Below, piece by piece: positions 23,807 to 64,000 of a DNA stretch of 64,000 nucleotides. The translations under genes and the position numbers were made by a program. Every line of letters starts with the position of its first letter. The stretch's first letter is position 1. Under the pieces are notes generated by a model. That model was not told where the DNA came from. It saw nothing but the letters and a program-made list of their open reading frames with translations, and did not search any database. Source of the DNA: an uncultured Lachnospiraceae bacterium (GTDB taxonomy: Bacteria > Bacillota > Clostridia > Lachnospirales > Anaerotignaceae); assembly GCA_944383855.1 (NCBI GenBank), contig CALWRB010000053.1, positions 1-64,000 on the forward strand. Reading direction: 5' to 3'.

Positions 23807-23819
23807 TATTCCATAAACC

Positions 23820-24092
23820 GATGAGAAAGAGTAGTATTTGGCACAATGTCTTTCAGAGAGCTGCCGTTGGTGGGAGTGCAGCAGGCTAATGTCAAAGAAT
23901 GGACTTTCGAGGGTGAGCAGAACGTACGGTATCCCGTATCAGTATGCAAGACGGAGTGGATCTTCGTTACCAAAACCGATGTGTGTGATGGCACATATCT
24001 GAGAGAGGGTATTTTTAATACCAAGTTGGGTGGCACCGCAGGAATGAACGTTCTTGTCCCTTCGAATAGAGAAGGCGACAGAGCGTTTTTTT
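23820..24092 (+). ncRNA. T-box leader, tryptophan type
   Basis: Elements in order: GATGAGAAAGAGTAGTA (base of stem I with the GA-rich turn), CAGAGAGCTGCC with the distal loop GTTGGTGGGAG, helix TTTGGCA/TGTCAAA (23838-23844 with 23890-23896), then GAATGGAC in the specifier-loop position, giving the Trp codon TGG at 23900-23902. The T-box sequence GGGTGGCACCGCAGG (24028-24042) pairs with uncharged tRNA. A terminator stem follows (CGTTC at 24049 with GAGCG at 24081-24085, then seven T). Trp starvation would allow read-through into trpB2. Confidence 0.92.
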
Positions 24093-50463: not shown

Positions 50464-50469
50464 CTAAGC

Positions 50470-50572
50470 GTAGATTATATGACTGACGGAACCGTGGATT
50501 CACCACATGGAGTATAATCGTTAACCAAGCCGACCGTCTGGGCAAGAAAAGGCCCGGACGTGCGGCTTTTTC
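50470..50572 (+). ncRNA. ZTP/ZMP riboswitch (pfl motif) with terminator
   Basis: P1 GATTATA/TATAATC (50473-50479 with 50513-50519) encloses GACTGACGG, the GTGG/CCAC hairpin and ATGGAGT, matching the pfl-motif consensus; the second domain GCCGACCGTCTGGGC (50529-50543) carries the conserved CCGNCTGGGC. It also forms the left arm of a terminator with GCCCGGACGTGCGGC and T5. The class senses ZTP/ZMP, signals of low 10-formyl-THF, and ligand binding prevents termination. Its place before pfl genes is the association that named the motif. Confidence 0.92.
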
Positions 50573-60973: not shown

Positions 60974-61141
60974 TTACTTTGCGCAGGAAGCAGCAAAGTT
61001 TCTAAGCTGTGACATGGTATTGATGTTTTTTCCGTCCTTGGATATAGTAAGCTGAACTTCATCGGGCAGAGATTTATAAAAAGCCTGCGCACGTTCATTG
61101 TTTAACAGCAGATCAGCTAAGTCTTGGTAAGAGCTTGCCAT
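60974..61141 (-). CDS. Small protein of 55 residues, unknown function
   Basis: ATG at 61141 on the minus strand with AAAGGACG nine bases upstream, ending TAA at 60974. The product begins MASSYQDLADLLLNNERAQA and contains FYKSLPDEVQ, SKDGKNINTM and QLRNFAASCAK. It is soluble and helical, resembling small clostridial proteins with a FESLPxxVQ-type motif. No function can be given. It is divergent from the adenine deaminase leader. Confidence 0.6.
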   Translation of the reverse strand: MASSYQDLADLLLNNERAQAFYKSLPDEVQLTISKDGKNINTMSQLRNFAASCAK

Positions 61142-61282: not shown

Positions 61283-61310
61283 TTGACTTTTTTGTCAGAT
61301 ATGGTACGAT
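61283..61310 (+). promoter_or_regulatory. Promoter of the adenine deaminase leader
   Basis: TTGACT (61283-61288), 16-bp spacer ending in TGG, TACGAT (61305-61310). It predicts a start near 61317 and a leader of about 165 bases. Confidence 0.6.
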
Positions 61311-61316
61311 GAAAAC

Positions 61317-61427
61317 AAACAAAATAGTAATGTATCGAAATTCTATTGGCAACCGGTTTTCCGGCACCAATACCGATTTTATGCATTCGGGACGGGAAAC
61401 CTGGTCGTTACAAACCGGGTTTTTTTT
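61317..61427 (+). ncRNA. Structured leader with terminator before the adenine deaminases, unassigned class
   Basis: A two-part hairpin ATTGG/CCAAT (61345-61349 with 61367-61371) and CCGG/CCGG (61353-61356 with 61361-61364) is followed by a terminator: AAACCTGGT (61397-61405) with ACCGGGTTT (61414-61422) and T8. CCGGTTT (61353-61359) can instead pair with AAACCGG (61412-61418) of the terminator, an antiterminator-like alternative. The purine-riboswitch core was looked for and not found. Confidence 0.6.
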
Positions 61428-61482
61428 GTGGAAAAATACCGACACAGAAAAAACGAATCAGACAGGACAGAAAGGAGAAATT

Positions 61483-63264
61483 ATGGAACGGACAGTGGCT
61501 ACATTAAAGGAAAGAATTCGTGCAGGCAGTGCAAAGATCCCTGCGCAAAAAGTGATCAAAGGGGGTATACTGGTCAATGTTATGTCCAGTGAGATCTATC
61601 CTGCCGATATCGCGATCTATAAGGATATGATTGCCGCAGTGGGCGATGTGGAGCCTTATATCGGACCGGAAACAGAGATTATTGATGCGGAAGGAAAATA
61701 TCTCGTACCCGGCATGATCGATGGGCATATCCACAGTGAGTGCAGCAAACTGAGCATCACAAGCTATGCAAAAGCAGTCGTACCGCATGGAACGACCAGT
61801 ATGATCTCAGGTCTGGACGAATATATTTCCGTATCCGATTTAGACGGATTGCGTGAAATTTTAGATGAAGTAAAGAAAAGTCCCTTAAAGGTATTCTGGG
61901 GCGCGCCTTACAAAACACCTTATACCGTGCCGCAGTCAACAGTATCTTTTAATTTCAACAAAGATGTCCACGAAACAGTTCAGCAGTGGCCGGAATGCTA
62001 TGGTGTGTGGGAAACCGTAACGGAGTTCGTGCAGGAAGAAGACGAAGATACTTTGAGTGCGATTTCCCAGGCTTTCCATAATCGTCTGCCTGTTTTTGGC
62101 TGCGCGCCAATGGCAAGGGGAACAAAATTGAACGGATACCTTTGCAGTGGTGTACGTCTGGATCACGAAAGCTATGACCACGAGGAAGTAGTAGAAAAAA
62201 TGCGTAAAGGTATGCATATGTTGATCCGTGAATCGTGCGTGACACATTTTCTGGCGGAAAATATCCGTGCCGTGACAGAAGTGAATCCCGCTTTTGCCCG
62301 CAGAGTCAGCTTCTGTACCGATGATGTGACCGCAACGGATATCCTTTCTAAAGGACATATGGATCATGTGGTTCGTCTTGCGATCGCAGCAGGGGTAGAC
62401 CCGATGACAGCGATTCAGATGGCAACGATCAACAGTGCGGAGGCGTACCGTATCGACCATTTGGTCGGCTCTATCTGCCCCGGCAGAATCGCAGATATTT
62501 TATTTGTAGACAGTTTGGAAGATTTTAAAGTATCTAAAGTTATGACAAACGGACAGATGGTTGCGGAAGATCATCATATTACTTATGATCTGAAAGCACC
62601 GAAAAGAAGCCCCATCTTCCAAGGTCCTCTGAAATGCAAGAAAACGACGAAAGAAGATTTCGAATATAAAGTACCGATTCAAAACGGAACCGCAAAAGTT
62701 CTTTCCATGGACGTACAGGGACCTTTTGTCCGCAAGAGAAGGGACGTTGTGCTTCGTGTAGAAAACGGAGTTGTTCAGCCCGATACAGAACAAGATGCGA
62801 TCATGGTTTCTGTTTTGGAACGCTTTGGCAAAAACGGCAATCGTTCTTTGGCATTTTGCTCCGGCTGGAAATTGAAAAACGGCGCGATGGCATCTACCTG
62901 TGCGCCGGACGATAATAATTTGGTTGTCATGGGCTCCTCGGCAGAAGATATGTCGATCGCAGTGAATTATTTGATCGAGCAAGGCGGCGGTCAGGTCGTT
63001 GTAGAAAATGGTAAGGTTCTGGAATTTTTACCGCTTCCTGTCGGCGGCATCGTCAGCGATGCGGAACCGGAAGAAATTGCCGCAATGGAAAAGAAGATCG
63101 ATGAAGCGGCAAGAAAAATCGGCTCAGATCTACCGAATCCTATGATGTATATGTTCTTCCTACCGATCACAGCTATTCCCGATTATGCTTTGACAGACGT
63201 CGGACCTGTGGATTATCGTGCGCTGACAACTTATGATCCGATTTTGGAACTGACAGAGGAGTAA
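61483..63264 (+). CDS. Adenine deaminase family protein, divergent paralog
   Basis: A 593-residue amidohydrolase. After KVIKGGILVNVMSSEIYPAD comes PGMIDGHIHSECSKLSITSY and VPHGTTSMISGLDEYISVSD; the C-terminal half has TDDVTATDILSKGHMDHVVR and GVDPMTAIQMATINSAEAYR, all Ade-like. The usual DPHEIVNV after the HGTT motif is replaced by GLDEYISV, and GHSPGLSG is CAPMARGT, so substrate or metal handling probably differs. ATG 61483 follows AAAGGAG; the frame is open upstream through the leader to 61186. A canonical adenine deaminase follows 17 bases later. Confidence 0.85.
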   Translation: MERTVATLKERIRAGSAKIPAQKVIKGGILVNVMSSEIYPADIAIYKDMIAAVGDVEPYIGPETEIIDAEGKYLVPGMIDGHIHSECSKLSITSYAKAVVPHGTTSMISGLDEYISVSDLDGLREILDEVKKSPLKVFWGAPYKTPYTVPQSTVSFNFNKDVHETVQQWPECYGVWETVTEFVQEEDEDTLSAISQAFHNRLPVFGCAPMARGTKLNGYLCSGVRLDHESYDHEEVVEKMRKGMHMLIRESCVTHFLAENIRAVTEVNPAFARRVSFCTDDVTATDILSKGHMDHVVRLAIAAGVDPMTAIQMATINSAEAYRIDHLVGSICPGRIADILFVDSLEDFKVSKVMTNGQMVAEDHHITYDLKAPKRSPIFQGPLKCKKTTKEDFEYKVPIQNGTAKVLSMDVQGPFVRKRRDVVLRVENGVVQPDTEQDAIMVSVLERFGKNGNRSLAFCSGWKLKNGAMASTCAPDDNNLVVMGSSAEDMSIAVNYLIEQGGGQVVVENGKVLEFLPLPVGGIVSDAEPEEIAAMEKKIDEAARKIGSDLPNPMMYMFFLPITAIPDYALTDVGPVDYRALTTYDPILELTEE

Positions 63265-63281: not shown

Positions 63282-64000
63282 ATGAAAAAAGAAGAACTGA
63301 AAAAACTGATTTTGACAGGAAAAGGTGAGATAGAGGCGGATCTTGTCATTAAAAACTGCAAAGTCGTAAATGTATTCAGCGGAAAAATCGAAGAAGGCGA
63401 TATTGCCATCAGCGGAAATCAGATCGCGGGCGTTGGTTCCTATCATGGTAAAAAAGAAATCGATGCTGCGGGAAGATATGCAGCCCCCGGTTTTATCGAC
63501 AGCCATATACATGTGGAGTCCTCTTATGTATCACCGGAAGAACTGGGCAGACTTCTGGTCCCGCATGGCGGTACAACGATCATTGCGGACCCGCATGAGA
63601 TCGTCAATGTTATGGGGATCAAGGGTTTGGATTACATGATGGAAGCCGCAAAAAATACTAAAATGGATATTAAATTTATGCTTCCTTCCTGCGTTCCCGC
63701 AACACCTTTTGAACATGCTGGACTTGTTCTTGGTGCGGATATGATGGAAGAACCCATCAAAAGAGAAGATATTCTTGGTTTGGGTGAATTTATGAATTAT
63801 CCCGGTGTGATCCAAGCAGATGAGGATTCTTTGGATAAACTGATGGTAGCAAAAGAAGCAGGAAAGCTGATCGATGGGCATTCTCCCGGACTTTCCGGCA
63901 AGGATTTGACGGCGTATGCCTGTGCCAGAATTCAAGGTGACCACGAATGCTCTACTGTAGAACAGATGCAGGAACGTCTTTCACTTGGTATGTATGTGCT
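63282..64000 (+). CDS. ade: Adenine deaminase (N-terminal part, cut by window end)
   Basis: About 239 residues are visible, from ATG 63282 with GCGAGG upstream. They include VIKNCKVVNVFSGKIEEGD, the metal motif DSHIHVESSYVSPEELGRL, PHGGTTIIADPHEIVNVMG, LPSCVPATPFEHAG and GHSPGLSGKDLTAYA, all canonical for Ade. It deaminates adenine to hypoxanthine in purine salvage. It follows the divergent paralog within the same operon and the same leader-controlled transcript. The C-terminus is outside the window. Confidence 0.93.
   Translation, partial: MKKEELKKLILTGKGEIEADLVIKNCKVVNVFSGKIEEGDIAISGNQIAGVGSYHGKKEIDAAGRYAAPGFIDSHIHVESSYVSPEELGRLLVPHGGTTIIADPHEIVNVMGIKGLDYMMEAAKNTKMDIKFMLPSCVPATPFEHAGLVLGADMMEEPIKREDILGLGEFMNYPGVIQADEDSLDKLMVAKEAGKLIDGHSPGLSGKDLTAYACARIQGDHECSTVEQMQERLSLGMYV

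Follow-up and report, generated by a model that had tools for sequence, protein, structure and literature searches.

A conserved structured leader RNA before adenine deaminase genes in Clostridia, probably a terminator-linked ON riboswitch

Two adenine deaminase genes, ade1 and ade2, stand at the end of the window, a stretch of 64,000 nucleotides from contig C53 of a 2.0-Mb genome of an uncultured Lachnospiraceae bacterium whose closest relatives with the ade1 gene include Anaerotignum species. What, if anything, does the leader before them regulate, and by which means? A first-pass annotation made from the letters alone had read a promoter, an upstream hairpin and a terminator in this leader, together with a 7-bp alternative pairing that would break the terminator, and had proposed a new purine-related switch or a protein-dependent attenuator. 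Our data indicate that the leader is almost certainly a conserved, structured cis-regulatory RNA. We put the probability at roughly 0.6 that, as sequence comparison suggests, it is an uncatalogued element, most likely a metabolite riboswitch acting as a transcriptional ON switch.

The leader and its conserved core

The promoter, the upstream hairpin (here P2) and the terminator were all recovered at this locus (Table 1). Transcription would be expected to start near 61317, and -35 and -10 boxes resembling those of the window are also found in Anaerotignum relatives. The 200-nt leader is more stably folded than shuffled versions of it (z -3.23, 1/200). Divergent from ade1, on the minus strand at 60974-61141, we also observed a small open reading frame of 55 aa (MASSYQDLADLLLNNERAQAFYKSLPDEVQL...) with a possible ribosome site.

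Table 1. Positions of the leader and operon features in the window
Feature	Position	Strand	Evidence
Sigma-70-type promoter, TTGACT-16-TACGAT, TG before the -10 box	61283..61310	+	similar boxes in L003-L005
P1 5' strand, GUAAUG-U-AUCG, partner 61402-61411 (UGGUCGUUAC)	61327..61337	+	base pairs listed; duplex permutation test
Invariant core box 1, AAAUUC	61338..61343	+	18/18 leaders and all six Anaerotignum-type leaders
P2 hairpin, UAUUGG..CCAAUA with CCGG/CCGG tip; insert specific to Anaerotignum-type elements	61344..61372	+	compensatory pair in L056
Invariant core box 2, the P3 hairpin, GG-ACGGGAAA-CC	61390..61401	+	alignment of leaders; P3 covariation
Intrinsic terminator, stem 61397-61404 / 61415-61422 and T tract 61420-61427 (T8)	61397..61427	+	
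P1 3' strand	61402..61411	+	base-pair listing
Shine-Dalgarno sequence of ade1, AAAGGAG	61471..61477	+	sequence
ade1, adenine-deaminase-like amidohydrolase, 593 aa, controlled gene	61483..63264	+	Pfam Amidohydro_1 and Adenine_deam_C
ade2, adenine deaminase, ~575 aa, runs beyond the window end; second gene of the operon	63282..64000	+	TIGR01178

The alternative pairing fared differently. Its letters are present (CCGGTTT at 61353-61359, AAACCGG at 61412-61418), but at least one such 7-mer pair occurs in 83% of 1000 dinucleotide shuffles of the region, and the two pairs observed compare with a shuffle mean of 2.6. Moreover, CCGGTTT comes from the tip of P2, and each of the five Anaerotignum relatives aligned has other sequence there. 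The annotation had itself named a lack of conservation of the pairing as refuting its proposal, and the pairing is absent from these relatives. We therefore rejected it as the switch. The proposal of a purine-related switch or attenuator keeps the support of its gene context and gains that of strong leader conservation, and loses the pairing on which it had been based.

What the annotation had overlooked is an invariant core of two parts, AAATTC at 61338-61343 and GGACGGGAAACC at 61390-61401. By nucleotide search, the leader was traced in five related genomes (L003-L007), ahead of the same gene; three of the matches reach E 1e-12 or better. A search with the ade1 protein extended the set to 38 loci, nearly all of them in Clostridia. 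The full core, AAATTC followed by GGACGNGAARCC, precedes ade1 in 22 of the 36 loci with upstream DNA and is missing in 13; a locus from a Coriobacteriales bin (L059) has both boxes, split by a longer insert. In an alignment of 18 leaders (A1), made without the Anaerotignum type, 16 columns are invariant, namely AAAUUC and GGACGNGAANCC, while most other columns drift and the flanks are unalignable. Divergent Clostridia thus share, in their ade1 leaders, AAAUUC and the hairpin consensus GG-ACGNGAAR-CC, and the ade1 proteins beside core-bearing leaders are 72-91% identical. In most genera ~9-18 nt separate the two boxes; in the window the insert is 46 nt, and in the nearest relatives it is likewise much longer, with the P2 hairpin. 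Because of this long insert, a covariance model built on other Clostridia scores the window at only 18.9 bits (E 0.11). On one Anaerotignum contig we noted two near-perfect inverted repeats with CTGAAATCC-like arms (L033:6559-6614 and L033:1577-1632), perhaps members of a dispersed palindromic repeat family.

The element is associated with ade1 only. Pattern scans covered 58, 391, 24 and 397 genomes, and the genome of the window was searched by pattern, model and similarity. A pattern match stands at the ade1 leader in 16 of 24 genomes carrying the gene, and each genome with the leader has one such locus. The covariance model matched 2 of 398 genomes of the phylum, both times before ade1. The 397 genomes of the large sister family gave ~50 pattern matches, part of which were read in context (a second match in G604 was outside those read). 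Matches in G604 and G611 were checked and proved to be ade1 leaders; those in G809 and G672 are taken as such from coordinates identical to the matches in the genomes of L040 and L035. The others read lie in coding frames or have no terminator context. Every convincing match in the large genome scans thus precedes ade1, and copies before other genes were discarded as a possibility among the matches read, which were ade1 leaders or coding and chance matches. A stricter pattern found none in viral contigs. The element is kept by many gut Clostridia before the same adenine deaminase genes.

Stems, terminator competition and tandem copies

The GG/CC-closed P3 hairpin extends by up to three further pairs that vary on both sides, with a covariation score that was reached by 2 of 500 shuffles. 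In most other genera, an outer stem encloses P3, beginning a few bases past AAAUUC; each arm pairs much better with its true partner than with permuted ones (0/5000). In most of these genera the outer stem is followed by a U tract, which identifies it as the terminator. A flanking helix, P1, encloses the core in the window (10 pairs, one bulge) and in L034, L036, L052, L053 and L058. A duplex permutation test with free register supports P1 across leaders (p 0.008; p 0.015 in a thinned set), and a fixed-column test on A1 gave no excess pairing. P1 is weak or absent in Lachnospiraceae-type members, and we rejected it as a universal helix, its support coming with free register only and mainly from outside that type.

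We infer that UUC of box 1 pairs with GAA of the P3 loop (61396-61398 in the window) as a pseudoknot. The putative pairing has no covariation support because UUC and GAA never vary. An extension by the base after UUC was dropped, as a hand check of A1 gave no consistent pairing with the variable loop position N.

Could the conserved letters instead mark a DNA-binding site or a peptide, with the leader an ordinary terminator, a DNA operator or a translated leader peptide? Hairpin terminators are common, and the leader of the window can be read in an open frame that continues into ade1. However, the loops of ordinary terminators are not conserved across genera, and P3 and the outer stem keep their pairing through compensatory changes that an operator would not need. 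The leader frames differ among relatives (SGRETWS versus FGTGNLV) and thus encode no conserved peptide, so the peptide was rejected. We regard this group of explanations as very improbable.

In the Anaerotignum type, CC of P3 and the 3' strand of P1 both lie within the 5' arm of the terminator, AAACCUGG. The conserved structure that can form in place of the terminator is the core hairpin together with the P1 3' strand (CCUGGU, 61400-61405), which the terminator arm consumes. Terminator and core fold are therefore mutually exclusive. The overlap takes other forms elsewhere: in L051 the terminator arm takes AGG of P3, and in the Lachnospiraceae type the terminator loop contains P3. Since core folding competes with completion of the terminator, core formation would turn the gene on. 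When the pseudoknot is left out, the terminator fold is favoured (-20.2 versus -16.7 kcal/mol for the compared elements), and the core would thus need to be stabilised by a ligand or a protein. The element very probably works through this competition with its terminator. The Clostridium-type members (L053, L061, L062, L133 and the gene-proximal copy of L138) are an exception to the terminator model, as they keep the outer stem and have no U tract. The leader ends of L053, L061, L062 and L133 were seen to run as an AT-rich stretch directly into the ribosome site, e.g. TATTTATTGGAGG.

Our model for the window is as follows. Without ligand, the nascent RNA would fold the intrinsic terminator (61397-61422), and transcription would stop before ade1-ade2. 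With ligand present, AAAUUC and GG-ACGNGAAR-CC would fold together, probably through the UUC/GAA pseudoknot and closed by P1 in some members. This fold would withhold the CCUGG strand and let the polymerase read through; in other genera, where the hairpin sits within the terminator stem, it would withhold that stem, with the same outcome. The letters expected to respond to the ligand would be AAAUUC and ACGNGAAA.

Several leaders carry the element in tandem. The L138 leader holds four modules before ade1 (535-1000); three of them are spaced at ~73 nt, their stems being followed by U-rich stretches. Two hairpins are present in L058 and three in L052, where two AAAUUC boxes are complete. The three upstream copies in L138 are near-duplicates of one another, and the gene-proximal copy is divergent and ends without a U tract.

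Such complete modules in tandem, each with a terminator-like stem, are typical of riboswitches, and they weigh against the main rival reading, in which an RNA-binding antiterminator protein, responsive to purine status, would bind the ACGNGAAR hairpin and AAAUUC and so prevent termination. A compact, sequence-conserved core before a single gene would also suit a protein site, as would its occurrence at one locus per leader-bearing genome. However, no consistent extra gene stands beside the operon when neighbours, not all of them annotated, are compared by size and position. The hairpin also lacks the form of an ANTAR-protein target: such targets consist of two adjacent hairpins with six-base loops that have A at position 1 and G at position 4, whereas the leaders have one conserved hairpin with the eight-base loop ACGNGAAR, in which position 4 is variable. 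Control by an antiterminator protein therefore seems unlikely to us. The riboswitch reading is preferred, and it is likely that the RNA senses a small molecule directly; both direct ligand binding and the ON polarity are suggested by the architecture described above.

Comparison with known RNA families

No Rfam family matched the window's leader at the gathering threshold, and at E<=10 there were only two chance matches to miRNA families. Scans of 24 relative loci returned nothing relevant, and at ade1 loci that lack the core no known riboswitch was found in its place. Known RNA families were rejected on these grounds. Elsewhere in the window, two ordinary elements were recognised: a T-box at 23812-24064, before a TrpB-like gene (24146), and a ZTP riboswitch at 50469-50550, before activase-like and formate-lyase-like genes (50608, 51311), all three genes being named by eye.

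The first-pass annotation was right that the conserved purine aptamer core is absent. The three-way-junction aptamer of the purine riboswitch was found neither in the leader nor in 19 further loci, its covariance model giving no match. The purine (guanine/adenine) and NMT1 xanthine riboswitches are alike to the ade1 element in controlling purine genes and probably in having a purine ligand, but differ from it in core sequence and fold.

Three classes come closer in design. In guanidine-IV (GGAM-1/mepA) and its variant Gd4v, conserved terminator nucleotides are joined upstream by a pseudoknot or kissing loop, and the RNA is an ON switch (PMC7736828, PMC9788692). In the HMP-PP riboswitch (thiS motif), the aptamer lies in an intrinsic terminator with an unusually conserved loop and a proposed pseudoknot, again with ON logic (PMC6478431). 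A core that competes with the terminator has been reported for HMP-PP (PMC6478431) and guanidine-IV (PMC11611296, PMC8632094). The ade1 element shares this common plan, and it could be a divergent member of one of the three classes. Their published descriptions and gene contexts differ from it, for Gd4v without deciding the matter. ACG is invariant in 18 of 18 ade1 leaders, whereas GGAM-1 is described as lacking a conserved ACG trimer (PMC7736828), and guanidine-IV was set aside on this account. Guanidine-IV and Gd4v are built of two hairpins, pseudoknotted in the published description of Gd4v, whereas the ade1 element has one hairpin and a single-stranded box. Their genes also differ: sugE or mepA exporters and other transporters for guanidine-IV, and transaminases or GNAT acetyltransferases for Gd4v, as against the adenine deaminase genes that follow every convincing instance here. 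HMP-PP elements precede thiS, HET-P or other thiamin genes, and the ade1 element is distinguished from them by AAAUUC, an additional invariant box that precedes the terminator stem. The negative Rfam result points the same way, subject to the reservation that the presence of guanidine-IV, Gd4v and thiS models in the library was not established. Membership in a known terminator-linked class is thus a remote prospect. A full-text literature search turned up no report of a motif associated with ade; its scope did not extend to supplements or to several motif catalogues, and a prior listing as an orphan motif is possible.

The controlled genes and the probable ligand

The two genes stand together in nearly every locus whose contig is long enough to show it. 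The ade2 protein scores 627 bits with TIGR01178, above the cut-off of 472.5, whereas ade1 scores 378.6 bits, below it; the best solved relative of ade1 is adenine deaminase 2 (3nqb). An alignment (A4) places GCAPM in ade1 proteins where the canonical deaminase ade2 has GHSPG. A histidine is hence replaced in all aligned ade1 members, and it may be a catalytic or metal-binding residue. As ade1 and ade2 travel together, they may form a complex or divide a function between them.

The third gene often encodes a membrane protein of ~400 aa (L036:6555-7775, L053:5413-6630 and orthologues) or an ABC transporter ATPase; neither follows ade2 in the window's genome. The membrane protein family has no Pfam match, and its L036 member has none in NCBIfam either. 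A structural model of low confidence (mean pLDDT 58) resembles the SLC26, UraA and UapA transporters. This well-conserved family after ade2 is, on the strength of that model, a candidate new family of purine permeases. The operon thus points to purine uptake and deamination. Adenine deaminases, accompanied in many relatives by a UraA/SLC26-type or ABC transporter, make adenine the likeliest ligand, followed by another purine base or nucleoside. A single type of controlled gene gives little leverage on the ligand, and we name adenine tentatively, from gene context only.

Taken together, the element probably activates adenine breakdown in response to an abundant purine, for instance adenine. Judged from sequence, it may represent an undescribed riboswitch class whose ligand is adenine or a close purine and which has no relation to the classic purine aptamer; this fuller reading is plausible at somewhat less than even odds. 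It would be a very small sensor, AAAUUC docking into an eight-nucleotide loop inside a terminator, and would serve gut Clostridia as an ON switch by which the substrate induces adenine catabolism, with up to four modules in an array. Should the element prove to be a riboswitch, it would form a new orphan class whose core is compact and testable and whose candidate ligands are few, and would provide a second, structurally unrelated RNA answer to the sensing of purine bases. It would also add one more terminator-embedded aptamer, a kind expected to be commoner than is recognised (PMC8632094). The four-copy array offers a natural case for the study of tandem switches. The genes come from gut Clostridia, and bacterial purine breakdown may bear on the purine and urate levels of the host.
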